Assembly: GCA_029582155.1 (NCBI GenBank)
Contig: CM055899.1
Coordinates: forward strand, 86,772,056-86,836,055
DNA from: Panopea generosa
Taxonomy: Eukaryota > Mollusca > Bivalvia > Adapedonta > Hiatellidae
Reading direction: 5' to 3'
Length of the DNA stretch: 64,000 nucleotides
Below, in pieces: positions 666-52,790 of this stretch; the first letter of the stretch is position 1, and the number at the start of each line of letters is the position of its first letter. Made by a program: the position numbers and the translations under genes. The notes beneath the pieces were generated by a model. The model made no database searches. It saw only the letters and a list, made by a program, of their open reading frames with translations, and had not been told where the DNA came from.

Positions 666-1245
666 TTGTAGAGAAATTGAAGTATTTGTCATAACAGCGT
701 ACAGTGGGCTACAGGTGCCACATTTATTGTCAGAGGAACTAGCCTGCTATATCACAATCAAATGTTTTTACATTTTTAACCTCAGTATGTTTAACTCTTG
801 CGAAGATCCCATCTCCTTGATACTTTATCGAAAACACTGAAATGAAACAAAAAATGGCTCAATTTTGTGAAAGATATTTTTCAAGAGTTAATATATGAAT
901 ATGTGATAAAAGTTTCAGAAATGGCAAAATAAATATGCAGAAAACAGCAATTAAACAGGTGTATAATTATTAAAGGGCCGTACGTTATAATCCCGTTTCA
1001 AGTCTGGACGCCCAAACCATTCCAATCTTTTAATGTGGTCCTAAACACCATTGTAATTGTTCTATATGTAGAATATTACAATTATCAGAATTTAAAGAAC
1101 ATACTCGATTTGACATATTCATTCCAACATTAACAAGAATATTAATTAATAGTAAAATATGAAAACACAACAATACAGTCCACTGCAAATTCAAATTCAG
1201 TCTGCAAAGCGTGTGAACGACAACAAGCGGTCGTGAGTTTGAATT
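1..1245 (+). repeat. Left arm of a large inverted repeat
   Basis: The sequence is matched in reverse complement and in the same order by 17998-19895. Position 1 corresponds to about 19895, 690-960 (non-satellite) to 18960-19210, 961-1140 to 18757-18960, and 1140-1245 to 17998-18085. The right arm carries about 670 bp not present here (18085-18757). Inner ends diverge just after a GGTCGTGRGTT motif. The arm may continue left of the window. Confidence 0.9.
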
Positions 1246-1459
1246 CGAGCTCAACCACACTATCTGTAATGATTCAATAGGATGTTGTCCTACGACCATG
1301 AATCTTCCTGTTTTAATTTTGTGGGGAATTAGTCAGTGACTTCTGTTCTTATATTTTGTAAACACGGATAGGAAAATGATATTAAAGTAAGACACTCATT
1401 GATAACTATATACATTAACAATTTAATTAAACGAACCAGTAGATTCAAAACGGTAAGTC
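1246..1459. other. Unassigned spacer
   Basis: No coding or RNA signal seen. The short B-box-like string near 1228-1245 suggests an old tRNA-derived SINE end at the inner boundary of the inverted-repeat arm. Confidence 0.4.
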
Positions 1460-1625
1460 GGGCCCGATTAGCTCAGTCGGTTACGCGTCTGAATATCAAT
1501 CCAGGGGTCGTGAGTTCGAATCCCCCGCCCGGCAACAGTCTCCGTGATGATTGATATACAATATTGTGTCTCATATCATTCGTCTCTCACCGCTGAGAGC
1601 AATCCCCAACTGACAGCTGGTTGGT
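1460..1625 (+). repeat. tRNA-derived SINE, copy 1 (5' part)
   Basis: The head resembles a tRNA: A-box region GATTAGCTCAGTCGG and B-box GAGTTCGAATCC, but the anticodon arm does not fold into a 5+7+5 structure, so it is a SINE rather than a tRNA gene. The following body (AACAGTCTCCGTGATGATTG... CATATCATTCGTCTCTCACC) is shared with 14762-15055 and with the headless copy at 24584-24785. This copy ends sooner than copy 2. Confidence 0.75.
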
Positions 1626-2146
1626 AGTTGGTTATTTGAATCCCGAACTACCAACTGCGAACTACCTACTAACTTTACAGTCATGCATTTATTACAATAT
1701 TACTGTCACAGTGTGAATGTAACGTTTGAAAATGTAGACAAGCACCCAAAGACGCTTAGTCGCCTTTTAATCGAGAAGTCAGGGCTCCAGTCATGCAGTA
1801 GCTGAATATAGTTCTAGCCCTGTTAAATTGTCACTCAATAAAGAACTGAGACAGATACATATCGGCGGTTTCGGTTAGTTAAGTAATGGTAGCAATTGGG
1901 TACAGCTAATATACAAACGCCATTAACCACGACACACGTACACAGGCGCGGACGCACGTACGTTCGTGTGTATATGTGTGGGGAGTTGAATGGCATTATT
2001 GATGTGTTTTTAACATTTTGAAAGCATTGTCATGTTTTAGTGGAAAGAGATCATGGCGGAATAAGGTAATACACTTTAAATTGAAATTATTATGTTCTGT
2101 CCAAAACCAGGGCGGTAAATAGAATGTTACCAGCTACACAAAACAT
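1626..2146. other. Intergenic, with one 9-bp-stem inverted repeat
   Basis: Contains TTGGTAGTT facing AACTACCAA near 1620-1665. Nothing coding recognised up to the end of the retroelement at 2147. Confidence 0.35.
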
Positions 2147-2438
2147 ATTTATAAATCTTGCCAAGGGTTTGAAAAAACAACTGAACTAAGGATGCATTGA
2201 ATGGGTCACATTGTGACCAGTTATTATTATACAATATATGTAAAGCACATATGTGTCATAAAACATGGTTATCATTATGCATTATTAGAACGACACACAT
2301 GTGCCATAAATGTTTTATACATTACATCTTCAGAAGCAAGGCACACATGTGTCATAATATCAATAACTTATATTGCAAATATTCAAATAATACCGAAAAA
2401 AGAAAAGAAATGTGAAGGGTTCGATAGAATACGCCACT
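2147..2438 (-). repeat. B2 repeat of the split-direct-repeat retroelement
   Basis: Direct copy of 6639-6914, starting at ATTTATAAATC and ending at AGAATACGCCA. It differs by a few substitutions and by about 16 bp near 2278-2294 that B1 lacks. Each copy contains three CACATRTGYCATAA motifs, whose CACATGTG/CACATATGTG cores are palindromic. It marks the outer 3' end of the element. Confidence 0.88.
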
Positions 2439-2514
2439 CCAACATATATGTTAAAAATCTAAACGGAATTATGGACCATATACAGACCCTAAACCGCTCA
2501 AGTACCCCAATTGC

Positions 2515-2720
2515 ACGCAAACGGAGTGCACTCAGAGCGTAAGCGGAGCGCGAGCGTAGCGCAGACGGAGCGCGAACGGAGCGCAGATTGAGCGCAGACG
2601 GAGCGGACATGGACCGTAAGCAAACGCTGGATTTTGAATAATAAACGCACTCCTGAACGCATGAAATAGATCGAGTGCACTCAGACACGCTGAATGCACT
2701 CAGATACGCTGAGTGCACTC
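2515..2720. repeat. Subterminal array, left (GCGCAAACGGA-type)
   Basis: Irregular tandem repeats of GAGCGCAGACGGAGCGCGAACGG-like words, grading into GAGTGCACTCAGA repeats near 2670-2740. GC-rich against an AT-rich background. The same motif lies in the same plus-strand orientation just inside the right terminus, so the subterminal arrays are direct while the termini are inverted. Confidence 0.8.
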
Positions 2721-3430
2721 AGAAGCGCTGTATACGCTAGACACAGTAAGAAAACTGATAACAGAACTTTTCGTGCGCTACTGAGTGCACTCGTTCATTC
2801 GGATATACTCTTTTTTTATTATTTGATCGTGAAGTCGATACTTAAAATCGAGATAAAAATAAATTTTCTTTCAAATGAATATAAACCATGTAGTTAATAT
2901 AAATGTTTTACTGTAAAACGCATGATAAAACTTATTTTGGTCAACAATTTATCAATTATAACATAAATATCAATATTTAGCTGATCAATACAATAATGTT
3001 TAAAACACCTATTATACAATAGACGACACATCATTGGTAATCTACGGTTTCAAGGCTAACTTGCCGTGTTATTTCGATATAAATTAGTTATAGAACATAC
3101 AAAACATGTACTTTATTTCGATTTAAGCGTATACTGCTCCTAATACAAAAATATCAAAGCATGCGTGAATCAATCAAAACATAGATATACGTAAAATTAT
3201 ATGATTATGATTCTATTTGTTTGGGTATTTCGGCAAAATAAAAATTACCAATTTTCAATTTAATTTGGACTTTAGTTTTATATTTTCCCCAAACATAGTT
3301 ACACTGAGTTTGTGCTTAGTTGTAAACAAATTTACGTAAACTGTTATATTGCAATTAAAGTGGAAACATTATACTCGTGCACATCTCATTAGAAAAATAA
3401 TAATAAATTAATTGTATTCTAAAATATAAA
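2721..3430. other. AT-rich interior of the nested element
   Basis: No recognisable coding sequence; short open frames here have no domain-like composition. Confidence 0.4.
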
Positions 3431-3432
3431 AT

Positions 3433-3515
3433 GGGTCAGTAGTACAGCGGATAGGGTGCTGGCTTCAGACGGCAGAGGTCGCGAGTTTGACCCAGGCTTT
3501 ACCCGACCTCTCGAA
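3433..3515 (+). repeat. tRNA-like sequence (SINE head or decayed tRNA)
   Basis: Has an A-box-like stretch (GTACAGCGGATAGGGTGC) and a B-box-like stretch (GGTCGCGAGTTTGACCC), with a five-pair stem TGCTG/CGGCA closing an eight-base loop. The oversize anticodon loop and poor acceptor pairing argue against a working tRNA gene. Confidence 0.55.
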
Positions 3516-3924
3516 ACACAATTCAGTACCAGATCTAATAAGAGAATGCACTGGAGAAAGATATGCATAAGCTCTGAGCTTACTTGACAATCAAGCTAAA
3601 TTAAATTAATGTAAAATAAATGTATGTATGCCAAATTAACAAGACAGACCGAAATAACACATTAGACATAGGAAATAAAAACTAGCAAACGTAAATTTCT
3701 AGGTGACCTTTTTGAGGTTGTGATTTTATATTGACTAAAGAACAGCTTTTGATCATGAGGAAGGTTTAAATAAACAAAAAAGAACATGTATTCACTGCCT
3801 ATAAAAAAGTAAATATATTGTTTTCCCGCTTTCCTACAAAATCGATACGCCTGATCACGTGCACGTAAGCACGTAACAATTAAACCACTATAAAAGTTGT
3901 GAAAGGGGCAACAAGTAAGAAATG

Positions 3925-4100
3925 ACAACAATAATAATAATAATAATAATAAAGAAGAAAAAATACTCAGATAATAATAATATGATAATATAATAATATA
4001 ATAATAAAGTAATATAGCAATAATAATATTAATAATATTAGTAATAATAGTAATAAATAATAATAAAATATACAATAGATATTAATAATAATGGTGATAA
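3925..4100. repeat. AAT/TAATA microsatellite tract
   Basis: Runs of AATAATAAT and TAATATAATAATATA. Open frames overlapping it are low-complexity Tyr/Ile/Leu translations of the repeat. Confidence 0.85.
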
Positions 4101-5990
4101 TAATAAAATTATAAAAAATCTGCATATTTAAGTATTGATTTTGACTATATATTTCTTATCCAATCACATGCCGCGGGTTAAATAAAGATTCATTCATCTT
4201 GCACAAATTATAATCAAAATGAAAATTACACACCGGCAGGGTTCGTTGTGATCAATGGACCGATAAATCACCAATTAACTATTTATTGACACACATGTGG
4301 TTCTCATCATGCGTATCTGTTTTGATGATTGCCATGCAACTCTGCCTTCATTATAGTAATTTAATTGTTACATTAATTGTGAACGACTGACCAGATGCAC
4401 ATACACACGTATCCAATATAAAAGCTGTAAACAAATCAATAAGTCAATATGTATATTATAATAATAGCTCCAATGATAATAATATTTAAAAAAAAAATAA
4501 AACAAATAATGAAAGTAAAGAATAATACAAATAAAATACTACATTTTTACAAGGAATTACTTTAATTTTTATTAGTTTTAAAATTGTAGGATTGTTTTAT
4601 TTTGTAAATTAACAATTCTGATCTGTTTTTATACGAAATCGCTATGGAAGCTGTGGTAAAATGACAGCCCTGAATATACATCCCTTTATACGTGTATGTC
4701 ACACTTTCTACCATTCACTCAGAGCTGGCGTGGGGTTTTCGGTTCGTTTATTTAATGATATTAACATCATGATATTTACATACTAAAGCGTTCTGAAACT
4801 TCGAATAACCAATATCTTAAATAATTTTTTTATTTGTTGTTAATTGGCTGGCAGTTTTTCTTTCTTATTTTTTTCTTTTCAATCACATAATGTTGGCTCA
4901 ATTAAAATTCATCCATCTGGCACGAATTACAATCAAAATGAAATCATACATATCTTCCGTGGTCAATAGACCGATAAGTCACCGCTTTAGCATATAACCT
5001 AATTGACACGGCTCTCACTGGCATGTGACATAACGTAATTAACACCACGGGTGTGTTGCTGCGTGTCATATAATTATTGGTATAGCACAGTGGGTGTAGT
5101 TTCAAACAAATTAAATATAGTTTGTCATTTTGAATAATATATTAACATAAAGCATACTATCAGCAAAAGAATAATTTGAGAAACCCACTGAAAAAAGTTT
5201 ATTGCAAGTATATTTATAAACATAATGATAACGAAAATAATGATAAAAAACTTAAAATATCAGAATATCTTTTTTTAAGTTTAGTGAAGCCACATTTGGA
5301 CCCAAATCGAGAAAAAACACTACAAGATTATTATTTTTCAAAAATCATTGATTATAATGTCGAATTGCATCGCACAGATTATAATCAATTTTTCATCACC
5401 CATGCAGTGCATATTATTGATTATAAAGCTTATTTTAGTTTGAACATTAACAAAACCAGTGATATATCCACATGTTGTTAAGTCACTGCTTACACTGAGC
5501 AGATTTATGGATTATCATAAGGCCAATGAGGTATCAACAGTATGGAATTATTAATTAAATTTAATTATAAATAACAATTTATTTAGTTTATGTTGATGAT
5601 GTATATGTAAATTTTGTGGACAAACTTTATTGATTTCCTGTAACAAACAGCTTACGGTATATCAAAGAAGATACTGACGCAAACAAACATCGGTGTCTGG
5701 ATAACAGAAGCCGGTATAACGTGCGATGTTCTTTGATCACCAAGACCACTGATCACATATCAAAACATAGACACTTCCGTTTAACATGCCTACTATCGAT
5801 ACTTGTTCAACCTATCGCCCAGCGGGTGACATAATCTGTAGACAAACAATCGGATTATGAATTAATTTACCTTGACTAAAATCCCATGGATACATTTAAT
5901 TGCTCCATTGGAACAGATTAAATTAAAAAGTCAATATAGAATCAGTTTAAAGAGTTGAGATGTTGCGATTGGCTATGGGCCGGAAACCGA
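4101..5990. other. Interior of nested element, no assigned gene
   Basis: AT-rich. The best open frame is 5176-5481 on the plus strand (101 codons, rich in Asn, Asp, Lys, Tyr), but it matches no family I know and its composition is what AT-rich DNA gives. Two stretches (about 4150-4330 and 4880-5050) share words such as AATCACAT, TAAA..ATTCATC and GACCGATAA, suggesting an old internal duplication. Confidence 0.4.
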
Positions 5991-6210
5991 ACTGAGCGAA
6001 CTGAACGTTGAGTGAACGCTGAACGAAGCGAACGCTAAAAGGAGTATTAAATACAGCACTTAGCTATACAGCGCTCGTGAGCGAATACTTGCGTTTGTGA
6101 GTGCATTAAATTAACCGCGTTTAATCGAGTGCACGCAAACGGAGCGCGAACGGAGCGCGAACTAAGCGCGAACGGACCGCGAACGGAGTGCAAACTGAGC
6201 GCAAACGGAG
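5985..6210. repeat. Subterminal array, right
   Basis: Begins with GAACTGAGCGAACTGAACG-like words and continues into GCGAACGGAGCGCGAACTAAG-like repeats next to the right inverted terminus. Same motif family as the left array. Confidence 0.75.
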
Positions 6211-6279
6211 TGCAATTATGGGGTACTTGAGCGGTTTAGGGTCTGTACCTGATCTGTGTGGAGCAGGGGGTGGTGGGGG

Positions 6280-6640
6280 TAACAAATAACTACGTGTGTT
6301 CCGAGAGTGTTTTGAGTTACAACTGAGACAAATTATCTCCACTGACCAGGTAACTGACCAATCAGCGACGGGCTAATCCGTCATGCTCCCAGTAGAGCTA
6401 ATTGCGTATGTGTGAAAAGGCTAGCGATAAGACCTGTGCGGTCCGAGAGTGTTTAGATTAGTAACTAAGATAAAGGATCTCCACTGGCCCGGTAACTAAC
6501 CAAACATTGACGAGCTAAACGGTGATGCTTCCCACAGAGCTTGTGTAAGTGCGGTGAGGCTTGCGATATAAACTGATTATACAATACACGCTGCCCTTAG
6601 CTCGAGTTATAAGACGCGCTATGATTTTCATAGCTATTAT
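6280..6640 (-). repeat. A2 repeat of the split-direct-repeat retroelement
   Basis: 361 bp, near-identical direct copy of 14077-14437. Internally it is a diverged tandem dimer of about 140 bp: TCCGAGAG at 6300 recurs at 6442, and GCGATA at 6424 recurs at 6563. On the minus strand it lies directly 3' of B1, as expected when a circular intermediate with a B-A junction is integrated. Confidence 0.9.
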
Positions 6641-6914
6641 TTATAAATCTTGCCAAGGGTTTGAAAAAAAACAACTGAACTAAGGATGCATTGAATGGGT
6701 CACATTGTGACCACTTATTATTATGCAATATATGTAAAGCACATATGTGTCATAAAACATGGTTATCATTACACACATATGCCATAAATGTTTTATACAT
6801 TACATCTTCAGAAGCAAGGCACACATGTGCCATAATATCAATAACATATATTGCAAATATTCAAATAATACCGAAAAAAGAAAAGAAATGTGAAGGGTTC
6901 GATAGAATACGCCA
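6639..6914 (-). repeat. B1 repeat of the split-direct-repeat retroelement
   Basis: Direct copy of 2147-2438. It touches A2 at the sequence CTATTATTTATAAATC, where the last bases of A and the first of B overlap as AT; this is the likely recombination joint. The same joint is split at the two outer ends (ATTTATAAATC at 2147 and GCTATTAT at 14437). Confidence 0.88.
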
Positions 6915-7587
6915 TAAAGGAAGAACTATGAATTATAGTTCTACCTTCCCCCACATTTCGAGTGGAGAAAGAGAGCAGAAGGAAACTCTAGGATATAACA
7001 AATGTATATGTAACCATTCATAAATCAAAACATGAAAATATAGGTTTTCATATTATAGGTTTTAACGGCAGTATGGCAATCGCCCATATGTACATCTTCA
7101 CAATACAATATACACCAGAATGATAATATTAATATTTAAAAAAATGAAAAATACATTATAATTATAAAATTACATGCTACGTGTATACATGTTACACAAA
7201 ATATTCATTATCATAGTACATAGACATAGTATATAATACAAAATATCAATAACAAAGTACATGTTACAAGCCCATGCATGTAACACAAAATACAATAGTA
7301 TAGTTCGTAGTAATCCAAAGTAGATAACACAAAATATGAATTCAGAGTTCATGTTACAAGCCCAAGCAGGTAACAAGGAAATAGCATTATCCTAGTACAT
7401 GTTACAAGTTACATGATGTAAAATCACAAGCCATTCAACCATATAAAGTATGCCCTGGATGTAAATGAAGAGCTTGCCGGGAAGATACTGGTTAGCGTGT
7501 TACACAGCCCAAGCAAGTAACACCAGATATCTGTGTAATTATGTAACTGCTACAACGTCCAAGTACGTAGCAATTTTGAACAAGATT
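6915..7587 (-). other. 3' non-coding region with repeated TGTTAC...GTAACA dyads
   Basis: Lies between the recombinase stop and B1. It contains several imperfect palindromes of the form TGTTACA-AGCCCAWGCA-DGTAACA (near 7260-7285, 7350-7376 and 7498-7525) plus related half sites near 7185 and 7400. These could be structural RNA or recombinase-binding features of the element; that is inference. Confidence 0.55.
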
Positions 7588-7590
7588 AAC

Positions 7591-8483
7591 TCATTTCTCG
7601 GAGTCAGAAATGCGTATGTAGCGACGGAAAGCATTGCTATGCCATCGACCAAGTGAACAGATAGAAGCATCTGAATTATCCCTTTGAGCACAATCTGACG
7701 CTTTCCCAATTCGGAAACAATGTGACTTATAACGAGAACTATCAAACCCGCAGAACAGTAAGCATTTTGAAAGCTGCTTATCAAATTGAGATCTAGGAAC
7801 AGGCGCACCCGAACTGAGAATAAACAGAGGACCCGCCTGTGAACCACGTAAATTAATATATTGGTGTAATGCAGTAACAGGGGATATCTTAGTGTGACCA
7901 TGAGAGAACCCAATACTGTGAGGTTTGCCGTTATTATGTTTAAATTTTCTGAAAGTGACTCTTACATCGGTAGGGATGCCTTGATGGTATTGAAAGGACA
8001 CGTCGTCATATTGTAAAACAGTTGCCGCCGTGTGAAACCTAGAACATGCAATTTCATTACATCTTGCAAAAGTACTAAACGCAAACAAAAACATTGCTTT
8101 GAAAAGGGTACTGTCATGCGAAGACGCGGAAACATGTGTAAGTGTTTGTACTATTTTGTCTAAAATTGGTATTGTAATTGGAAGGCGAAGAACGTATGAT
8201 GGTGCTAATCTTTGTGCGCCTTTTACCATAGAGGTTATCAGAAAGCACTGATCGGGTCAGACACATGAAGGATCTTATGAACATAACTAATTGCAGATAA
8301 ATATGTTAATATTGTTTTAGAAGTCATTCGCAGTTGGTGTAAGTATGATACAAAAAGAGCAATAACTGATGTTGAAACTGGTGGGCGGAGTGTCTGTCCA
8401 AAAACATGTTGAGAAAACTGGCCAAACAAATGCCAAGCTCTTTGGTATGTGACGGACGTAGAAGGAGCGTGAGATGCGCGCAT
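7591..8483 (-). pseudogene. Tyrosine recombinase of the retroelement (frameshifted)
   Basis: Integrates the circular cDNA intermediate by site-specific recombination in DIRS-order elements. The N-terminal SAM-like region (SVTYQRAWHLFGQFSQHV) is at 8240-8460 and the catalytic domain at 7591-8229. Catalytic residues visible: Arg in ARCNEIA, HxxR in SHCFRIG, His in LGRWHSN and the nucleophile Tyr in FRRYIR. The ATG at 8483 overlaps the RNase H stop as TGATG, suggesting coupled translation. A single missing base near 8240 (TTCTGATAA where TTCTTGATAACC is expected) breaks the frame between the two domains. All catalytic residues survive, so the inactivation looks recent. Confidence 0.88.
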
Positions 8484-8965
8484 CAAAGTTTCAACCCCTT
8501 GCAGAAGACCTCTGGGTAGAGATGGGGGTTGATTGGAGTCTGTACTTGATCGCAGTTTGGGACCAGTTGCTTGAAACGGGTAATCTGAAAACGAGAGAGC
8601 GCGTCAGCTATACTATTATCAATGCCTGCAATATGCCTGGAGATGAAATGGATATTAAGCTGAAGGCAAGATAATACTAGCTTACAAACTAAAAACATGA
8701 TGCTGGGGACCTTGGAGGTCTGTTTGTTAATAATAGAAACCACTGCCTCATTCACAGTAAAGAAAACTATGATATGGTTACACCATAAATGACCCCAGGT
8801 AGCTACAGACACCACAATAGGGTAAAGTTCAAGAAACGTAATATTAACCTTACGCCAATGAGAAGGAAATGGGCCGTAAAATCATTTGTTACTGTAGAAT
8901 GCGCCATATCCCAAAGAACCTGCTGCATCTGTGAAAGTTGCAAGGTTTGACTATCAAGGTTTGTA
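8483..8965 (-). pseudogene. RNase H domain of the retroelement (stop and missing Asp)
   Basis: Follows the reverse transcriptase and would degrade the RNA template. On the minus strand TDAAGSLGYGAF (first Asp, near 8935), LELYPIV (Glu) and DNSIADALSR (last Asp, near 8600) match DIRS-type RNase H. The third acidic site normally reads TDNEAV but here is TVNEAV (near 8750). A TGA replaces Trp after FYSNK (near 8882). The link from RT to this domain also changes frame near 8960. Confidence 0.82.
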
Positions 8966-10052
8966 TCATTCAAAAAGAAATGATTTTCCGATGAATTGGC
9001 ATAGAAAGTCAAGCCACATAGTTATGTCCTCCTGGGCCATCTTATTCAATTTGACATGGTGGTGTAATTGTTTGAAGCCGATTGTAAAACTAATAAGTCG
9101 GCGAAGAAATGCTCTGCCAGGTCGGACAACAGCACATGCGAAATTCAAAAATCCAATCACAACCAGCATATGTTTTAAGGTACATGAAGATATCTTGTGA
9201 ATGGACTGAAGTAGAGAGACCGCTTTTACCAGTTTATCCGCTGGTAATCGAGCCTCCATTTTGTTAGAGTCAAGTGTTATACCTAGGAAAGTCATGGTCT
9301 GAGAAGGAAAGAAAGTCTTCTTAGTTGATAGTGGTACGCCGATAGCCAGACAGAGGTCCTGAAAGTTGTGCAGATCCTGAAAAGCTAGTGTGTACGAAGG
9401 AGCCAAAAATAAGAAATCGTCAAGAATTTTAACAATATATTTTGCGTTAAATTTGTGGGTGGCTATCCACAATAAAGCAAAACTAAAAGATTCAAAAATT
9501 TGATAACTGGAAGAAGCTCCCATCGGTAAGCACTTATCGAAGTAAAACAAACCATGCCATTTGAAACCTAAAAGTTCGTAATCGTCTGGGTGGATAGGGA
9601 TTATACGGAATGCCGCTTCAATGTCTGTTTTTGGCCATAAAAGCGTGTATGCCAATTTGTTTTAAACATGAAATTGTGTCATCAGTTGTAGAATATGACA
9701 TGCGCGTATAACATGTCGGTATGTTAGCATTGACTGAAAACCCAGTAACCTTGGGGTAAGACAGGTGGTGTATCAGACGAAACTCATCAGGGGAATGTGT
9801 TGGAACCATGCCCAGCGGCGAAACCCTAAAATTAGGAAATGGTTCATGCCTGAAAGGCCCAGCCACTCTGCCAGATTCTAGTTCTTTCGAAATCTTCTGG
9901 GAAACAATAGAAGCATGTGAATGAGCAGAAAATAAATTGGGACTATCTTGACATCGGCGAATGCCCTCAAAATTTAATCGGAAACCTTCTTTAAAGCCAT
10001 TGGCCAAATAGTCTGATAACGTTTTATCGTAACCTTTTAAAAACGATTCCAA
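8966..10052 (-). pseudogene. Reverse transcriptase of the retroelement (one frameshift)
   Basis: DIRS/Ngaro-type RT. Motifs in order: RVAGPF and FRVSPLGMVP, EFRLIHHLSYP, KTDIEAAFRIIPIHP (first catalytic Asp), CLPMGASSSYQIFE, ILDDFLFLAP (the Asp pair; ILDD for YxDD) and LGITLDSNKMEARLP. The reading frame breaks between 9618 and 9655: an AAAAA run (plus-strand T5 at 9628-9632) has one base too many in MAK(T)DIEAAF. Everything else is intact, so this could be a young mutation. The upstream ORF opens without an ATG, overlapping the end of gag. Confidence 0.9.
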
Positions 10053-10087
10053 AACCCACCAATTTCACCGGAGTTGGTAGGGAAATA

Positions 10088-11233
10088 TTAGGATTTCCCA
10101 GTATTTTGCAAGTTTGGCAAGAATTGTAAGGGATTGAAACTTTTAAGTGGTTGTTTGGTAGGTTGAGAGTTTCGCTGCTCTGGGTACCGTTTCCAACATT
10201 TGAATTGTGGATGATGTCCTGAGCAGGTTTTGCAGCGATGTAAAAACGTACATCCTGTGCAGTGTTCCCCCTTGTTGTATTTGTGACATGCTTGTTTGGC
10301 TTGAGACACAGGTCTCTGGAAGGTGGAACGAAAAGACTGCTTATGACTCAGAGCTTTCATGTAAAGCTCATTGTGAAGTGTATTCCACGGAAAAGGGGTC
10401 GTTTGTCTAAGCAGACGGAACTGTCTGTCATAGAAATGCCAATTTCCTCTAGAACTCGAAATTGAGCGAACAGTGGTGCCATATTGGGCGAGGGCGTCAG
10501 CCATGTCTGGATATTTTAACCTATAGACAGAAGAGTAAGTGGCGAAAGCATCTGTCAATTGTTCGATAGAAAGGAACTTCTTGGATGACAGCAGAAATTC
10601 CAGACTCAGAGAGTGTGAGTTGAAATGACCGAGGTGGATTGGCAGAAAAAACAGTAGAAAAATCAACAAATTCATTGTTTCATATCTTCACTTTTACTGT
10701 CAGAGGAAAGTAGACATGTAGTAAAGGTATAGAAACTGATGTTTGATTACTGAGAAGAGAAGTGGCCGGATTAGTTGGAAAAGCAGAGTTTAGGGGAACT
10801 GGATGTACATGATTGAAATAATCAGTAGAGACATTCATACCTGGCATGTTCAAATGCCGTGGTTGAATGGCTGGGCTTGTTGTAATGTGACTTGAATCAT
10901 GACACAGTCGTTCGGCTGTTGTTAGTCCCAGCACCTCGTTGACCTTTGTCTGTACCAAGCCCTGTATTTCGGATGTAATGGCAGCGGTGATGGATGCTGT
11001 CAGCTGTTGAACAGCAGTGTCCGGTTGACCGTGGCTGATTGAAGTTGAGGTTCTTGTATATAATTGCTATCAGATATCGAGACATCATTCGATGGCCGAC
11101 TTGTTGTCGCCGTATGTGACGGTTCTGAACGTGCATTGCAAATTGGTGGCCGACTGTCTCCAATCGTGGAACGGCGCTTTTGATTGTTTACGGCTGGTGT
11201 TGCTGGATGCTTCCTTTTCTGCCTGGAACTCAT
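10088..11233 (-). pseudogene. Gag of the retroelement (stop and frameshifts)
   Basis: Likely start is ATG at 11233 (MSSRQKRKHPATPAVNNQKR, basic N-terminus). The frame shifts near 11010-11020 into a segment reading QPDTAVQQLTAS through VNEVLGL, hits a TGA in place of Trp near 10678 (KI*NNEFVDFS), then shifts again into SIEQLTDAFATYSSVYRLKYP. The C-terminus carries a Cys/His cluster (CHKYNKGEHCTGCTFLHRC and CKTCSGHHPQFKC) typical of DIRS-type Gag and likely to bind nucleic acid. The gag C-terminus overlaps the start of the RT frame. A good 3' splice site (CTCTTTTAG) lies just upstream of the ATG. Confidence 0.82.
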
Positions 11234-11369
11234 TGTCCTAAAAGAGATGAAGCAAATTAGTAACATGTAAAAAGGGAGGTATATACCAAGTGATGGGACC
11301 CCTTCTGTATTACTATTCCAATGATATGGAAATATATTATCGGCTATAATGATGGCTGTGAAAGCATGC

Positions 11370-13000
11370 AACAGGTTTATGCGCCCGAAGAAGCTAATAA
11401 CAAAAACATGCCCGTGGTAAAGCCAGTTGCTCACGGAAGTTGTAGTAACGTATGCCCGTGTTAAAGCATAAATGCTCACGGAAGCTGTAAAAACACATAA
11501 AGTAAAGCATAATGACTCACAGAAGCTGAACAAAAATATATAGAGTGACCATGGTAAAGCATAAACGTTCACGGAAACTTATAAGAACATATATAGTGCC
11601 TGTGGCAAAGCATAAGTGTTCACGGAAGCTGTAAAAACACATATTGTGCCCGCGGTAAAGTATAACTGCTCCCGGAAGTTGTTGATAACATAAATAGTGC
11701 CCGTGGTAAAGCATAAAGCTCACGGAAGCTGGAAAAAAACACATAAAGTGCCCGTGGTAAAGCATAACTACTCACGGAAGCGGTAAATAAAACACATAGA
11801 GTGCCCGTGCTAAAGCATAACTGCTCACGGAAGCTGTAAAACACATATAGTGCCCGCGCTGAAGCATAACTGCTCACGGAAGGTGTTAGACAAACAAACA
11901 ACACATATACTACCCGTGCTAAAGCATAACTGCTCACGGAAGCGGTAAAACACATATCGTGCCGGTGCTAAAGCATAACTGCTCACGGAAGTGGTGAAAA
12001 CACATAAAGTGCCCGTGCTAAAGCATAACTGCTCACGGAAGGGGTGAAAACACATATAGTGACCGTGCTAAAGCATAACTGCTCACGGAAGGTGTAAGAC
12101 AAACAAACAACACATATAGTGCCCGTGCTAAAGCATAATTGCTCACGGAAGCTGTAAAACACATATAGTGCCCGTGCTAAAGCATAACTGCTCACGAAAG
12201 CTGTAAAACACATATAGTGCCCGTGCTAAAGCATCACTGCTCACGGAAGGGGTAAAAACACATATAGTACCCGTGCTAAAGCATACCTGCTCACAGAAGC
12301 TGTAAAACACATATAGTGCCCGTGCTAAAGCATAACTGCTCACGGAAGCTGTAAAACGCATATAGTGTCCGTGCTAAAGTATAACTGCTCACGGAAGGGG
12401 TCAAAATACATATAGTGCCCGTGCTAAAGCATAACTGCTCACGGAAGCTGTCAAACACATATAGTGCCCTTGCTAAAGCATAAATGCTCACGGAAGCTGG
12501 AAAACCACATAAAATGCCCGTGCTAAAGCATGAATGCTCACGGAAGCTATAAAACACATATATTGCCTGTGCTAAAGCATAACTGCTCACGGAAGCTTTA
12601 AAAACACATATAGTGCCCGTGCTAAAGCATAACTGCTCACGGAAGCTGTTAAAACATATATAGGCCCGTGCTAAAGCATGAATGCTCACGGAAGCTTAAC
12701 AAAATATATAGTTATAGTGTCCGCGGTAAAGCCAGGTGCTCACGGAAGCTGCTAAAACATATGTCCATGATACAGCATAAATGCTCACAGAAGCTGCAAA
12801 CGTTTATAGTGCCCGTGGTAAAGCATAAATACTCACGGAAGCTGGAAAAACACATATAATGCTAGTGTAAACGCCTAAATGCTCACGGAAGCTTTGTTTT
12901 AAATATATAGATATAGTGCCCGTGGTGAAACCAGATGCCCACAGAAGATGCCTATAACATATGCCCGTGGTAAAGTTTAAATACTCACGGTAGCTGTTAA
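11370..13000 (-). repeat. Hairpin-forming ~47-49 bp minisatellite inside the retroelement
   Basis: More than 30 tandem units of the type GTGCCCGTGCTAAAGCATAA-CTGCTCACGGAAGCTGTAAA-ACACATATA. Each unit contains CCGTG facing CACGG, and inside that AGC facing GCT, so it can fold as a hairpin with a CTAA bulge and an ATAACT loop. Units are most uniform at 11790-12700 and more diverged at both edges. The long minus-strand frames here (AxALYVFYSFREQLCFSTG repeats) are translations of the repeat, not a gene. Confidence 0.9.
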
Positions 13001-13298
13001 ATTGACGTAAAGCAATATAATGAAATCAGAACGCTAGACACTCTTTTTGTGTTTGAAATGGTGGAGTGTATACACATGTTAATATACTAAGGATATGGTA
13101 TAGCATATAGAAGCTGACAGGACACGGTCCTGCAGTATCGAAGTATATATGAATATCGAATTCGAGACCATTGAGAGTTATTTATACACAAGTGTCATAA
13201 CAATATACCAGTCCGTACGGATCGTATTACATAATTAAAATGACAAAGTCGATATGTAAATATAGAAAAATAGTACAGTACTCCCCATGAATTTATGA
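13001..13298. other. Spacer between minisatellite and hydrolase ORF
   Basis: AT-rich, no features recognised. Confidence 0.4.
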
Positions 13299-13898
13299 TC
13301 ACCCAATGCGCCTCACTGCTGTCATGATGGCATGTCGTATGGACCGGTAAAACCGCTGCTGTCCAAACTGATTCAGGTGGACGCCATCGTCACGGAAGAT
13401 GGGTGTTCGGGCCCCGAAGATCCGTCTATGATGCCAGAAGCGAATGTTGTCATGGACACCAAGCAATGTGTTTAATATTGTGTTAGTGTGTACCCGCTTG
13501 TCCTCGTACATTTCGGCAGAAATACACTGTGGTTTAATCCTCGTAAATATTTCACACATCACAACCTGTCCGACATTAAAGTCATTCTGTAGCATAACAG
13601 CCAAGTCCTCCAAATCACTCGCTAGTGTCAAAGGATGGATATGCTCACATAAGTCATTGCCTCCAATTTGTATAACAACAACCGCCGGTGCAACTGCAAG
13701 TAAAAAAGTATGAAAATGGCGCAGAAACGCATTCTTGTCCGTGACTCGCAATCCACCAAATCCTTTATGAACAACACTGCATTCTACCAATCCATAATCT
13801 GCTAGCATACCCCCACACACAGATGAAGAAACAACATGGCCAAGACGACGAACGAAACTATGACCTATAACTGCGACGCGCACAGATGTATCCGCCAT
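13299..13898 (-). CDS. SGNH/GDSL-type hydrolase carried by the retroelement
   Basis: A 199-residue intact ORF, MADTSVRVAVIGHSFVRR... to VRRIG. SGNH blocks are visible: block I VIGHSFVRR (catalytic Ser; GHS where many members have GDS), block II KGFGG (Gly), block III IGGNDL (Gly and Asn of the oxyanion hole) and block V DDGVHLNQFG (Asp and His). The family includes esterases, lipases and acyl-hydrolases; the substrate here is unknown. No signal peptide or membrane segment is seen. SGNH-type domains are known as passengers of some non-LTR and Ngaro-type retroelements. It lies inside the A repeats, in the element's orientation, 5' of gag, so I read it as an element gene. It is the only core ORF without a break. 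Confidence 0.85.
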   Translation of the reverse strand: MADTSVRVAVIGHSFVRRLGHVVSSSVCGGMLADYGLVECSVVHKGFGGLRVTDKNAFLRHFHTFLLAVAPAVVVIQIGGNDLCEHIHPLTLASDLEDLAVMLQNDFNVGQVVMCEIFTRIKPQCISAEMYEDKRVHTNTILNTLLGVHDNIRFWHHRRIFGARTPIFRDDGVHLNQFGQQRFYRSIRHAIMTAVRRIG

Positions 13899-14076
13899 GT
13901 TTGTTTAACTACACAACAACATGCGTTGAAATTAAAGTCTGTGGCGTGTAAACAATCCAGATGTAAAAAACACAAGAAATTGACAATAGTCAATTAAAAA
14001 CAATATACCTGGATATCACTGTTCAAACAAGAAATAATAAAATTTAGACACTAATCAAAACGTAAAACAAATGTGT
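13899..14076 (-). promoter_or_regulatory. 5' leader of the retroelement with a possible splice donor
   Basis: On the minus strand the sequence CCAG-GTATAT near 14010 resembles a 5' splice site. Together with the acceptor CTCTTTTAG at about 11240, just before the gag ATG, it could define an intron removing the hydrolase and minisatellite so that gag is the first ORF of the spliced RNA. Spliceosomal introns have been reported in DIRS-like elements; this instance is a prediction. Confidence 0.35.
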
Positions 14077-14437
14077 TAACAAATGACTACGTGTGTTCCG
14101 AGAGTGTTTTGAGTTATAACTGAGACAAATTATCTCCACTGACCAGGTAACTGACCAATCAGCGACGAGCTAATCCGTCATGCTCCCAGCAGAGCTAATT
14201 GCGTATGTGTGAAAAGGCTAGCGATAAGACCTGTGCGGTCCGAGAGTGTCTAGATTAGTAACTAAGATAAAGGATCTCCACTGGCCCGGTAACTAACCAA
14301 ACATTGACGAGCTAAACGGTGATGCTTCCCACAGAGCTTGTGTAAGTGCGGTGAGGCTCGCGATAAAAACTGATTATACAATACACGCTGCCCTTAGCTC
14401 GAGTTATAAAACGCGCTATGATTTTCATAGCTATTAT
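14077..14437 (-). repeat. A1 repeat of the split-direct-repeat retroelement
   Basis: Outer 5' repeat, direct copy of 6280-6640 with the same internal ~140-bp tandem dimer. Copies differ at only a handful of positions. It should contain the promoter; no confident TATA or initiator was identified. Confidence 0.9.
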
Positions 14438-14670
14438 CTATGTAATTTGATAGAAATAGTACAGTTCATGTATGTAGTATATATATTATGAAGGTAGTGT
14501 GACATCTTATATGCTATTTTAAAACTCATTGAATATATATCGTGTCCGTCGTTCAATTAGTTCAATTTTATTTTTTTAAATTATATTACATGTATTTAAT
14601 TTCAAATCTCCAAGAAAAATGAAGTATTATATTAACTATTATACGCGGAGTAAAAACACATCAACAAGCC

Positions 14671-14710
<40 letters not shown>

Positions 14711-14761
14711 TGTATATTATTCTATACAAAGCATATAACTTGTTCATATAGTTTGCAAACC
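14438..14761. other. AT-rich flank with (TC)n microsatellite
   Basis: Holds an uninterrupted CT repeat at 14674-14708. Otherwise no feature seen. Confidence 0.7.
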
Positions 14762-15055
14762 GGGCCCGATTAGCTCAATCGGTTACGCGTCTGACTATCA
14801 ATCCAGGGGTCGTAAGTTCGAATCCCCGCCCGGCAACAGTCCTCGTGGTGACTGATATACGACATTGTGTCTCATTACCATTCGTCTGTCTCCATTGATA
14901 CAAATAGGAAAGTAATCAGTTACTTGCGGAGATGACGTGTGTTCGAGTACTGGTTAACCTTTCAGGATCGCAGGAAACAGTGGTTAGGTTAACCTCTGTT
15001 AGCCCTCGATGGCATAAAAATGACGCTCTTTATATTCAATTTATCAATCAATCAT
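14762..15055 (+). repeat. tRNA-derived SINE, copy 2 (longest)
   Basis: tRNA-like head at 14762-14836 (GATTAGCTCAATCGG A box, AAGTTCGAATCC B box), then a body with GATATACGACATTGTGTCTC, CAGTTACTTGCGG, GGTTAACC and AGCCCTCGATGGCATAAAAA. The open frame at 14932-15132 is inside this SINE and not a gene. Best of three clear copies in the window (1460, 14762, 24584). Confidence 0.82.
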
Positions 15056-16089
15056 ACATTTCACAAAAAGGAAATAAGCGAAAAGGATTTAGACGCAAAC
15101 AAATCACAAAAATACATGTACATGATCAATGATATAAACTAATGATCAAATACATAATATTTTCCAAAATCGTCAGTATTACAGAAAATACATTGTATGA
15201 TCATTATTTTTTTATTGCTACTAAAAAGAACAAAAACACTTACCGCTTGAAGCAGTGTCGATATATCCATGTAAAATAACAAAGTGGCATTTCTTCACGT
15301 CAACAATATATCTTGTAATTATATATCACGCTGTTTTTCCTCTAAGATGACGCTACGCTTGATTGACGCTTAAATCGATAACGAATTTGAACGAATCTAA
15401 TCGGATATAGGGGTGTCGTTTTGTTCAAATGTATTTCACCACAAAGCTAATTTCGTTAACATGTTCAAATTGGATGCGATAGCTGTGACTTAACACTCTT
15501 TGTTCAACAATAAGTGTTTTTAATTCGGTTAAAATATACAATAGTGCAACGCAAACACAATTATCACTATCTGGCCACCCGATTAGAGAAATGGACTCGA
15601 CCGCTAATCGGCACATCAAAGCTCATCAACAGGCCATGTGTTTATATTGAACAGAGATTCTGCCGTTAGGGATAATTTATAGACTGTAAGTAAAAGTTTA
15701 TTGTTTACATTTTATATACATTTAAAGATTTTCTTTTTCTGTTTTCTCATTGAACGCTATCAATTCCAAATTATAATTTTTTTATTTGAATGGAATTTAT
15801 CGCCATTTTAAACACGTTTCAGGTTATATACACAACAAAAAATAGTCCTTTGGTCATAACAAGCATTCTCTTTTGATAAATTAAAAATGCATTTATGTAT
15901 ACGCTTAAAATTTCTATACAATTTGATGGCGATCAACCCATCGTGCGTTATTACACATTAACAACTGGTGGGTGGGGTTAAGACAAGATTAATTAACTGG
16001 TCGGAACTTACAAATTAATAATTTCGCAGCTGTCAAAACAGTCAATATTCATTTACAAATTTAGACCGGAAATTAGTTTTATGGATTAG
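15056..16089. other. Intergenic, nothing recognised
   Basis: AT-rich, low complexity in places; no family-like open frame on either strand. Confidence 0.4.
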
Positions 16090-16165
16090 CCAGCCCGATC
16101 AGTTCAGCCGGTAGAGCACGAGACTTCTAGTATTGGGGTTGCGGGTTCGATTCCCGGGGCTGGAC
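16090..16165 (+). repeat. tRNA-Arg/Lys-like SINE head or tRNA pseudogene
   Basis: 74-bp tRNA-like sequence: CCAGCCC at the start can pair with GGGCTGG at the end, A box CAGTTCAGCCGGTAGAGCA, anticodon-loop candidate CTTCTAG (TCT anticodon) on a stem with a mismatch, and B box GGGTTCGATTCC. The D-arm spacing and stem mismatches make a functional tRNA unlikely. Confidence 0.55.
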
Positions 16166-17997
16166 AACTAAGAATACTAAATGTCGTTGTGATATGACTT
16201 TACGTGTGACGGTGCTATACACCGATTAAAGACCTATGGGTTATGGGAAAACGGTGGCGATGTAAATCTAGCTGATGATATACAAAAGTTTTATGGATCA
16301 ACCCGTTGTGTCTGACTGTGGTCTTCTGAGAACACGTGCACATAAAGTCATAATTTAACGTAGTGGTAATTAGTTGTTATCACCAACTGTCTTAAGTTCG
16401 CTTAAGATATAAATTACCGATTATCACAGATTATTTGTATCCATCATTTGTGTCATCTAAAATCACAGAATCATGATTTATATGGTATTAATTGCATTAA
16501 TACAGTTTATCACTAAGTTTCATACTTTTATTCCAATTTTGATTACTGTTATTGCTTTATATGTACAATGATATTAATATGTTTGCATTTTATTTGCATA
16601 GACGTCACGCACGGTAATGGCACCTCTAAGCGTAACACGATGTAAACGTTAAAATTGTATAAAATGTAATATGACGTTTTAATTCATGTATTTCGTATCA
16701 TTTATTTAACAAGAAAATAGCCAAACATCGGAATATCAATGACTGCAATGGAATCATGATTTTTTTGCGGATATTAAATGGATCAAAACCAATGATATTA
16801 CTGTACAGTATACCATGTTCATAACTAGCGGCGTCCATAGGTTGTATCGTATTAAAAGAACGTCAAATGTCGTTGTCAATATTTGATATATGACAAAGGA
16901 AATGCTTGATTCGAGGTGTAAGTGATTTTCCAAATATTTCAAAATTTTGGGACACTAACAGAAACTAAATTAACTCGTTAATGTAATATTCAAAAGACAA
17001 TATTCTGTGTTAAAAATATGGTAAATATGATCAAAATATGGAGACAGACGTTATGTCTTGGTAAAAATACTAAGGGGCGGCAACTCATAGAGGACATTTT
17101 CAATACGAAAGCTGTACCATTTAGAGCAAAGTGAATATATTTCATTCCACAAAAGCAGGTTCCACTGGAATTTTACTTAAGTATGATTGGACTTTAAGAT
17201 TTTTATGTTCGCGATATTTTCTAATATAATTAAATAATTCAAATACTTTTCAATTATTTCTTTCTAATAACGTTGGAGGGCAACACCTTAAAAATTGTAA
17301 TATCTCATAATCGCAATATGAAAATGTCATCAAATACTTTATAATAAAACAATGACCATAGACATACATATGTTTAATGCAATATCAACATTTATTTTTC
17401 ATCTTGACTGTTCAGTATGACTTTATTGTCGAGTCGTTTGTTTTCGGGACATTTAGTAAATACGTAATGAACTGCGTGTTCCGTAATGACCGTTAAGTTT
17501 GTTGTAATAAAACACACATGTCTGTTACCTGAAATTATGTCACTTTCTCTAATGAATAGACCTTATATCTGTCGTTTCGCGCCGTTTCTAAACATAATGT
17601 TTTAGGCCGGAACACGGGGAAAATGACGTTAAATGTGACTTATTATTATATTAAAATATATAAATCGTATCAACAGCATAGTTTATATCTGTCAACTAAA
17701 AATATCGTTCCACGACCTTTATTTTGATATATAGTAACTATAATTCCAAAAACGATCAAGTATTCGGGAACAGTTTTATATATTTCGGGTATTAGTTTTA
17801 TCAGTAAACTTACATATTCATTTATACCGGCTATATTATTTTGGTGTTCTTTTTTACTGTAAAATATCAAACGTTTAAATGATCGCACAGTTAAACATTA
17901 TGCAACATGCAGTGTTCTGTCATATAGCGCTGAAATATGGACCATATTTATCAAAAGAACGCAGGGAAACTTCATGATGCAACATTGATAACCCACG
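16166..17997. other. Intergenic, nothing recognised (1.8 kb)
   Basis: AT-rich. Small open frames (16754-16942, 17670-17888, both minus) resemble chance translations. Confidence 0.4.
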
Positions 17998-21600: not shown

Positions 21601-22080
21601 TTAATTTTAGTTTTAATTAGTCAATGTGTATATTTTGTAATAAATATTTATAACTGAAACTAGATGTTGTGTTGTTTTTTTACTAGTTTGCAGGTATCAT
21701 ATCTTGAAAAAAAAAGAGGATTTTTTTCACAAACATGTTTTGTGAGAGGATTAATCCTTGCGTATTTTCTAATTTAGGGGGGTCAGGACGCGAATTTAAG
21801 TTAAAGTAGATATATGAACCTCCCAAAAACGACACATCTGAACCACCCCTTTTACACAATATAGGTCCTAAAAGAGTACTTTATTGGCAAATCCCTATTT
21901 AAAATGTCTTCCATTCTATGTGTTATAGAATTTGAATAAAAATGTTGTGAGTTAAAAATAGTTCTTCTATTGTAATATTGTTGACTTTTTCTGGAAATTT
22001 AGTTTGTATATATGACAAGTTGTTTGTAACTTCATTCATGTAGTACTCTCTAAACACTCATCATACGTTATTGGTAATAA
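21601..22080. other. Spacer between two arrays
   Basis: AT-rich; one isolated GAGGATTAATCCTTGCG at about 21747 is a stray satellite remnant. Confidence 0.6.
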
Positions 22081-24010
22081 ACTTTACTGATTCTTTCAAT
22101 ATCCTAAATTCTCTATTTTTTCTCACACTAAACTCTCTATCATTATACGTACACTAAACTCTCTATTATTTTCCGTACACTAAACTCTATATCATTATCA
22201 CAACACTAAACTCTCTATCTTTTTCCGTACACTAAACTCTCTATTATTTTCCGTACACTAAACTCTATATCATTATCACAACACTAAACTCTCTATCTTT
22301 TTCCGTACACTAAACTCTCTATTATTATCACCGCACTGAACTCTCTATCATTGTCCGTACCCTAAACTCTCTATTAGTATCACCACACTTATCTCTATAT
22401 CGTCTTCCGTACACTAAATTCGCTGTTATTACCACAACACTAAACTCTATATACTTTTCCGTACACTAAACTTTTTATTAGCATCACCGCACTAAACTCT
22501 CGATCATTTTCTGGACACTAAACTGTCTATTTGTATCACTACACTGAACTATCATTTTCCGTACACTGAACTCTCTATTTTTATTAACACGCTGAACTCG
22601 CTATCATTGTCCGTACACTAAACTCTCTATTAGTATCACCACACTAAAATCTCTATAATTTTCCATACATTAAACTCTTTATTATTATCTCTACACTGAA
22701 CACTCTATCATTTTCCGTACGCTTAACTCTCTTTTATTATCACCACACTAAACTTTCTATCATTTTCCGTACACTAAACTCTCTATTATTATCACCACAC
22801 TAAACTCTCTATAATTTTCCGTACACTGAACTCTCTATTTTTATTACCACGCTGAACTCGCTATCATTGTCCGTACACTAAACTCTCTATTAGTATCACC
22901 ACACTAAACTCTCTATCATTTCCCATACATTAAACTCTTTATTATTATCTCTACACTGAACACTCTATCATTTTCCGTACGCTAAACTCTCTTTTATTAT
23001 CACCACACTAAACTCTCTATCATTTTCCTTACACTAAACTCTCTATTATTATCACCACACTAAACTCTCTATCATTTTCCGTACACTAAACTCTCTATTA
23101 GCATCACCACACTAAACTCTCTATATTTTTTAGTACACTAAACTCTCTGTTATTATCACTTGATGAACTATCTATCATTGTCCGTACATTAAACTCTCTA
23201 TTTGTATCACCACACTAAACTCTATATCGTCTTCCGTACACTAAATTCTCTGTTATTACCACAACACTAAACTCTATATAAGTTTCCTTACACTAAACTT
23301 TTTATTATTGTTACAACACTAAACTCTCATTAGCATCACCGCACTAATCTTTCGATCATTTTCTGGACACTAAACTGTATATTAGTATCACTACACAGAA
23401 CTATCATTTTTCGTACACTGAACTCTCTATTATTATTAACACACTGAACTCGCTATCATTGTTAACCACTAAACTCTTTATTATCATCACCACACTAAAC
23501 TCTCTATCATTTTCCGTACATAAAACTCTTTATTATTATCTCCACACTAAACACTCTATCATTTTCCGTACACTAAACTCTCTTTTATTATCACCACACT
23601 TAACTCTCTATCATTTCCCGTACACTAAACTCTCTATTGGCATAACCACGCTAAACTCTCTATTATTATCACAATACTGAACTTTCTATCATTTTCCGTA
23701 CACTAAACTGTCTATTAGTATCACCACAATAAAGTCTCTATCATTTTCCGTACACTAAACTGTCTATTATTTTCACCACACTAAACTCTCTATTAGTATT
23801 ACAACACTAAACTCTCTATCATTTTCCGTACACGAAACTTTATTATTTTCACAAAACCGAACTCTATCTCATTTTCCGTACACTACACTATAATATACTA
23901 CATATTTGTATTATATTTTCCCACACTTAACCTCTACCATTTTCTGTATACTATACATTCTTTTATTTTCATTTCACTATTCTCTATTATTTTCCGTAAA
24001 ATAAACTTTC
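22080..24010. repeat. 26-bp minisatellite with a 52-bp alternating unit
   Basis: Units alternate CACTAAACTCTCTAT + CATTTTCCGTA and CACTAAACTCTCTAT + TATTATCACCA, giving a 52-bp higher-order unit. Segments around 22590-22720 and 22850-22990 share the same ordered variants, pointing to block duplication inside the array. The frame at 23459-23680 is a repeat translation. Confidence 0.95.
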
Positions 24011-40448: not shown

Positions 40449-40461
40449 TTCTTAAAGTTTA
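40449..40461. repeat. Target-site duplication of the LINE, right
   Basis: TTCTTAAAGTTTA, identical to 38361-38373. The first five bases may also belong to the LINE (microhomology with AAGAATTGGC in copy B). Confidence 0.85.
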
Positions 40462-52084: not shown

Positions 52085-52298
52085 TAAATATAATGAAGCG
52101 AGGATTGTTTTACAAAACGCACTATGTAATATTTCAATTATTAACCTAAAAACTTCTTTATGGAGATCAAAATGTCTCACTTGAAACACATATTCGTATT
52201 TTTTATGCAGCACATTCGTATATTAAAAGCACAAAACGATTTTATTAGATCACTCCAACTTCAATTTCAAGTATGGTATAAAGCACAACTTGTCCTTG

Positions 52299-52332
52299 CC
52301 CCCCCCCCCCCACTCCCACCCCCACCCCCTAC
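52299..52332 (+). repeat. Poly-C / CCCCA low-complexity tract
   Basis: Run of C with interspersed A and T in the 3' part of LINE copy B; gives the PPPPLPPPP translation at 52160-52438. Confidence 0.9.
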
Positions 52333-52790
52333 CCTATCTGTGTTGCCCCAAATGACTTTCATTCTTTTCTTATATTTCAATATGAACTTTGTCATCTATA
52401 TTCGATTTAAAATTTTATTTAGAATATTTCCCTTATGATATCGTATGTCAACATGGTACCCTTTCGTCCTAGTGTGTATATGTATGTGCCCATTTAACTT
52501 CTGGTACCGACTACCATTTATACATATTTCTCTTACTATTTAACTATTTATTCAATAATACTTAACTATTCTAAATACTGAATTAAATAATTGCAATTGT
52601 CAATGTTAATACCAGTTAAATATTATAAACTGCGTACACGAATAGCCATTAATATTAGAATTTACACCATCAGCTTGAGAAAAACATCATAAGCATTATG
52701 CTTCCGTTCTTATCCTTTTTCTATTATTGTGTACACTTGTATTACTGTATAAAATGTACTTATATTGAGAAATAAAATATGTTTAAATTT

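Follow-up and report, generated by a model that had tools for sequence, protein, structure and literature searches.

A stretch of 64,000 nucleotides from the genome of the bivalve Panopea generosa (contig CM055899.1, positions 86,772,056 to 86,836,055; hereafter the window) carries on its minus strand, from position 14437 to position 2146, what is very probably a degenerate Ngaro-like tyrosine-recombinase retrotransposon with split direct repeats. Ngaro elements are a known but uncommon kind of retrotransposon, and the present copy is Ngaro-like when judged by its structure. A first-pass annotation of this DNA had proposed a tyrosine-recombinase retroelement with a complete split-direct-repeat layout, and the assignment to this group is well supported by the predicted features, i.e., the repeats, the matches to the Pfam families RVT_1 and Phage_int_SAM_1, and the ordered recombinase motifs. 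Completeness held for the ends of the element, while its genes were found to be broken. We filed the element as Ngaro-like because its repeats and open reading frames (ORFs) follow the order A1-ORFs-B1-A2-B2, no methyltransferase was matched, and an SGNH hydrolase ORF is known in amphibian Ngaro. A single decayed copy, taken alone, is ordinary; its clean split direct repeats and readable 3-bp junction would make it a useful test of the circle model for tyrosine-recombinase retrotransposons.

Split direct repeats and the ATA joint

Two pairs of direct repeats, A and B, organize the element, and all four copies lie on the minus strand. Sequence comparison showed that the left repeat, A1 (14077..14437, 361 bp, starting ATAATAGC), recurs internally as A2 (6280..6640). 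The right repeat, B2 (2146..2436, terminating ...AAATA), has its internal copy, B1, at 6638..6914, where it overlaps A2 by ATA (6640-6638). The A copies (14437-14077 vs. 6640-6280) aligned over 361 bp without gaps and with 8 mismatches, 7 of which were transitions (618 bits by BLAST); a wider alignment contained 9 mismatches in 365 columns, of which one fell beyond the repeat. For the B pair (6914-6638 vs. 2436-2146; 433 bits), 270 of 293 columns were identical, the remainder being 5 mismatches, one 16-base indel and one 2-base indel. When the element without its minisatellite was shuffled 100 times with dinucleotides preserved, a direct repeat was found in 87 shuffles and none in 13; the highest score was 33.7 bits. 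The repeats are genuine and greatly exceed what chance would produce. A BLAST of positions 1000-16000 against the whole window (E 1e-6) returned no extra copies of A or B. Divergence was alike in both pairs (8/361 for A and 5/275 aligned bases for B), which fits a single insertion event. Internally, A1 consists of two ~140-bp subrepeats that are 75.5% alike.

Alignment and BLAST thus bore out the two repeat pairs, their orientation and the minus-strand order A1-ORFs-B1-A2-B2 of the first-pass annotation, and moved several of its boundaries. B2 starts at 2436 rather than 2438. Since the B identity reaches 6638/2146 and the A identity begins at 6640/14437, the stretch common to B1 and A2 is three bases long (ATA, 6640-6638) and not two. 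Of the proposed outer ends, 14437 was retained, whereas 2147 was replaced by 2146, to which the identity runs. ATA is present at the outer ends as well (14437-14435 and 2148-2146): with slashes at the boundaries, the passage from the left flank into A1 reads ...TTACATAG/ATAATAGC, the B1/A2 joint ...TTTATAA/ATA/ATAGC, and the passage from B2 into the right flank ...TTTATAA/ATA/TGTTTTG. The outer boundaries had been considered exact to the base; this was too strict, as either flanking ATA may be target sequence.

In DIRS1-like elements, a 3-bp circular junction lies where the two internal complementary regions overlap, and a model of integration has the junction trinucleotide recombine with an identical genomic trinucleotide (PMC3266345). 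By analogy, and from the alignment, the ATA common to B1 and A2 (6638..6640, minus strand) would be a 3-bp circular junction, and the anatomy of the element fits the DIRS1-like model, with split direct repeats replacing the inverted ones. In such a cycle, the element RNA would be reverse transcribed, the internal B1A2 block, as a copy of the joined ends, would serve as splint or template, and the B2 and A1 ends would be joined at ATA to form a circle. The tyrosine recombinase would then swap the 3-bp core with a chromosomal ATA, so that ATA stands at both ends and staggered cuts produce no target-site duplication. A DNA transposon with terminal inverted repeats (TIRs) would have inserted into the A2-B2 interval; the gag-pol-recombinase genes would have decayed. 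The bases beside the core are also alike at the left end (ATAGATA) and at the joint (ATAAATA), with 6 of 7 matching including the core; in this one case, the likeness may reflect target choice.

Coding region

The coding order on the minus strand is SGNH hydrolase ORF, minisatellite, gag-like region, reverse transcriptase (RT), RNase H-like region, and tyrosine recombinase (YR). The order gag-RT-RNase H-recombinase had been given previously and stands, with RNase H placed by motif, but that account lacked the SGNH ORF before gag and the 49-bp minisatellite. Pfam was scanned with 90 stop-to-stop ORFs of at least 45 codons from both strands of 2146-14437 at E up to 0.1, and 20 families were listed. 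The RT (8966..10064, two frames, motif ILDDFL) matched RVT_1 above the Pfam cut-off in its piece 9655-8966 (E 5.6e-08), and a protease/RT/RNase H chain in the PDB was matched weakly (E 0.0044); the other RT piece, 10064-9621, was without a Pfam match and was placed by position. The YR (7591..8603, two frames) comprises an N-terminal SAM-like domain followed by a catalytic domain. The former matched Phage_int_SAM_1 (E 1.5e-04) with 22.4 bits against a cut-off of 22.3, i.e., 0.1 bit above it, and the latter keeps ARCNE, HCFRIG, and GRWHSNAFRRYIR, in order, which we take to be recombinase catalytic motifs. The RNase H-like region (8486..8956), interrupted by a stop, contains FTDAAGS, LELYP, and NSIADALSR, presumably motifs of the RNase H type. 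The gag-like region (10088..11233), spread over at least three frames, was assigned from its position and from a Cys/His cluster, CHKYNKGEHCTGCTFLHRCKTCSGHHPQFKCW, at 10288-10193, which we assume to be gag-type; a possible start, MSSRQKRKH, lies at 11233, and no gag family was matched by Pfam in the gag-like pieces.

Several results weigh against the reading as a Ngaro-like element. The RNase H region had no database match, and its 8 PDB listings were chance-level matches to large T antigen. In the catalytic piece of the recombinase, the Phage_integrase match was weak (E 0.034, 14.4 bits vs. a cut-off of 27.1), and no PDB match was obtained at E up to 10. NCBIfam matched none of 6 pieces. In addition, A2 and B2 lie close together only if the nested insertion described below is real.

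From gag to recombinase, the reading frame changes repeatedly and in-frame stops occur. Elements of this kind normally show some frame changes between genes, while those within gag, RT, and YR are abnormal. Because the frame changes and stops lie inside these three genes, we judged the copy to be inactive. In scans of IMG/VR, no relatives of one RT piece, one recombinase piece or the SGNH ORF were confirmed (89, 13, and 4 pattern matches, respectively), nor were relatives of the RT piece in GTDB (34 pattern matches); both databases hold few animal sequences, and the empty scans say little.

SGNH hydrolase ORF and minisatellite

The sole unbroken gene of the element is an ORF of 199 amino acids (13299..13898, minus strand), 178 bases after A1 and upstream of gag, which encodes a predicted SGNH/GDSL hydrolase with GHSF, GGND, and DGVHLN blocks. 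It matched Lipase_GDSL_2 (E 6e-09, 37.1 bits; cut-off 32.9) and Lipase_GDSL (23.7 bits; cut-off 23.6), and 5 PDB matches ranged from E 0.047 to 0.54 (GDSL-like, TesA, and designed proteins). It is followed by a minisatellite with a unit of ~49 bp (11395..13001, minus strand), for which Tandem Repeats Finder gave 27.5 copies over 11503-12893. A single unit can form a short hairpin. We dropped a structural role for the minisatellite RNA, since folding of 401 bases (12300-12700) was no better than that of shuffles, 55 of 100 of which folded as well or better.

It is possible, although less likely than not, that the element represents a Ngaro lineage in which an SGNH/GDSL esterase was moved or captured 5' of gag, with the 49-bp array standing in the leader. 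This would resemble those non-LTR (long terminal repeat) elements in which an esterase sits in ORF1. In amphibian Ngaro, an SGNH hydrolase ORF follows the recombinase (PMC9210276), and SGNH esterases are already known in non-LTR, Penelope-like, and LTR elements (PMC3905857; PMC5408684). A limited search of literature excerpts, with the original Ngaro papers outside it, met no Ngaro with SGNH before gag, and we claim no novelty. If true, such a lineage would indicate independent capture or relocation of hydrolases by unrelated retroelements; the 5' position, if common to other copies, would add to the esterase captures across retroelement classes.

It is rather unlikely that the SGNH ORF and the minisatellite are a separate insertion and not genes of the element. 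Consistent with an insertion, the ORF is intact, in contrast to gag, RT, and YR, and its position is unlike that in the Xenopus Ngaro (PMC9210276). However, the ORF lies on the same strand only 178 bases past A1, Ngaro elements with an SGNH ORF are on record (PMC9210276), and no strong inverted repeat brackets the region, in which only two 14-nt pairs, 86% complementary, were found. By a hand estimate, an unbroken 600-base ORF at ~1% divergence per copy is not surprising, and no selection is claimed.

Gap between A2 and B2

The 3843 bases that separate A2 from B2, a gap unmentioned in the first-pass annotation, probably contain a nested TIR transposon of ~3763 bp (2483..6245, no strand assigned), to which TIRs, TA edges, and paired subterminal repeats point. 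The inverted arms (6247-6210 and 2481-2516) agree at 36 bases, counting the TA, and are interrupted by a single 2-base gap, and the insert contains arrays of an 11-bp subterminal repeat. Close to the two ends, additional inverted pairs (2693-2709 with 6091-6107 and 2718-2734 with 6065-6081) were among 20 reported, many of which were A+T-rich. Removal of the insert would leave 78 bp between A2 and B2, close to the published B1A2B2 arrangement. That the gap is instead intrinsic to the element appears improbable. No more than about 50 bases separate the arms from A2 and B2, as an intrinsic gap would allow, but the TIRs, the TA at both edges, and the paired subterminal repeats argue for an insertion, as do a G+C content lower than that of the coding part and the published Ngaro layout, B1A2B2 (PMC8547959). 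No convincing transposase was found in the putative insert. Apart from the GDSL, RT, and recombinase families, we treated all families listed in the Pfam scan as chance matches, among them PhaG_MnhG_YufB (two members, E 0.0015), HTH_Tnp_IS1 (one, E 0.075), and Topoisom_I (one, E 0.059); the listing names the ORF for the first member of each family only, and the insert may yet contain a trace of a transposase.

Class assignment and comparison with known systems

PAT elements contain a methyltransferase domain, whereas Ngaro and Viper elements are without it, and the internal repeats of Ngaro lie downstream of the recombinase (PMC4157794) in an A1-[ORFs]-B1A2B2 layout (PMC8547959). The placement of the repeats here is of the Ngaro type, B1 starting at 6914, downstream of the recombinase ORF end at 7591. 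No methyltransferase family and no integrase core were among the 20 Pfam families listed for the 90 ORFs, although on its own this silence is weak, given that RNase H escaped the scan as well. A stronger argument is the spacing between RNase H and recombinase, which from the ADALSR end (8591) to the start of the SAM-like match (8474) amounts to 116 bases. Searches for DPPY and NPPY found neither motif, and the hits of the looser.PP[YFW] were confined to unrelated ORFs (EPPF and TPPF). Since pol and YR overlap in some DIRS1-like elements (PMC3266345), an overlapping methyltransferase frame was also considered, but the other frames at the RNase H/recombinase boundary gave no Pfam methyltransferase match. 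The earlier annotation had left the choice between PAT and Ngaro open; the Ngaro-like side of it held, whereas a methyltransferase of the PAT type would scarcely fit and none was matched. A PAT element of the DIRS group would share the split direct repeats, and the zinc-finger gag of Pat1 (PMC4157794) would agree with it, but the 116-base spacing, the absence of a methyltransferase family from the 90 ORFs, and the lack of DPPY/NPPY make this very improbable, and PAT membership was dropped. DIRS1-like membership was likewise dropped, the sole reported inverted pair of at least 30 nt in 1000-16500 being the TIR of the nested insert. A reading of the A copies as the LTRs of an LTR retrotransposon, with B as unrelated duplications, suggested by the near-identical 361-bp direct repeats on both sides of gag-RT, has almost no likelihood and was dismissed, as A is without TG...CA ends and flanking duplications, no DDE integrase core was listed among the 90 ORFs, a tyrosine recombinase lies inside the element, and B2 terminates outside A2 while the B1/A2 overlap is the same three bases as the outer ends.

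Among published systems, DIRS-53_XT of Xenopus tropicalis has the same A1...B1,A2,B2 split direct repeats (there 236 and 152 bp), corresponding gag, RT/RNase H, and YR ORFs (the RNase H being putative in the present copy), and an SGNH hydrolase ORF with no methyltransferase; it differs in that SGNH comes after YR there and before gag here, and the ~1.6-kb minisatellite, the 3.8-kb A2-B2 gap, and the broken genes set the present copy apart (PMC9210276). The Ngaro element of Cafeteria burkhardae shares the A1-[ORFs]-B1A2B2 order, RT with the putative RNase H, and YR, but is about 6 kb with three ORFs, and neither hydrolase nor SGNH is a word of the main text (PMC8547959). PAT/Pat1-like elements have in common with the present copy the split direct repeats and, in Pat1, the zinc-finger gag, and differ by the methyltransferase domain, which was not found here (PMC4157794). 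DIRS1-like elements resemble it in a 3-bp circular junction, putative here, that recurs at the ends of the element, and differ by inverted terminal repeats and a methyltransferase in place of the direct split repeats (PMC3266345). For an amphioxus Ngaro-like copy, the split-repeat arrangement is said to be distinct from others (PMC2632668).

Surroundings

The Ngaro-like element lies between the arms of a large inverted repeat (1-1141 vs. 19896-18759 at 94.6%; 1139-1239 vs. 18090-17990 at 96%) that carry 81-bp tandem arrays, and a larger mobile element may enclose it. Two tRNA-like short interspersed elements on the same strand (1459-1591 and 14761-14893, 89.6% alike) stand one on each side of it. 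ARAGORN reported no tRNA, and Rfam gave no match in the window at the gathering threshold. Elsewhere, a sequence resembling a long interspersed element occurs in two inverted copies (38375-40457 and 50503-52787, 90-94%) with an RVT_1 match at 39195-39956, and another RT fragment at 53704-54126 fell just below the Pfam cut-off for RVT_1 (E 1.1e-06). A 26-bp minisatellite of about 69 copies occupies 22104-23889, with a strong GC skew (-0.668) in 22001-24000. Long satellites with units of 104 bp (47.7 copies, 57264-62227) and 62 bp (22.7 copies, 62598-64000) follow, the latter reaching the end of the window.

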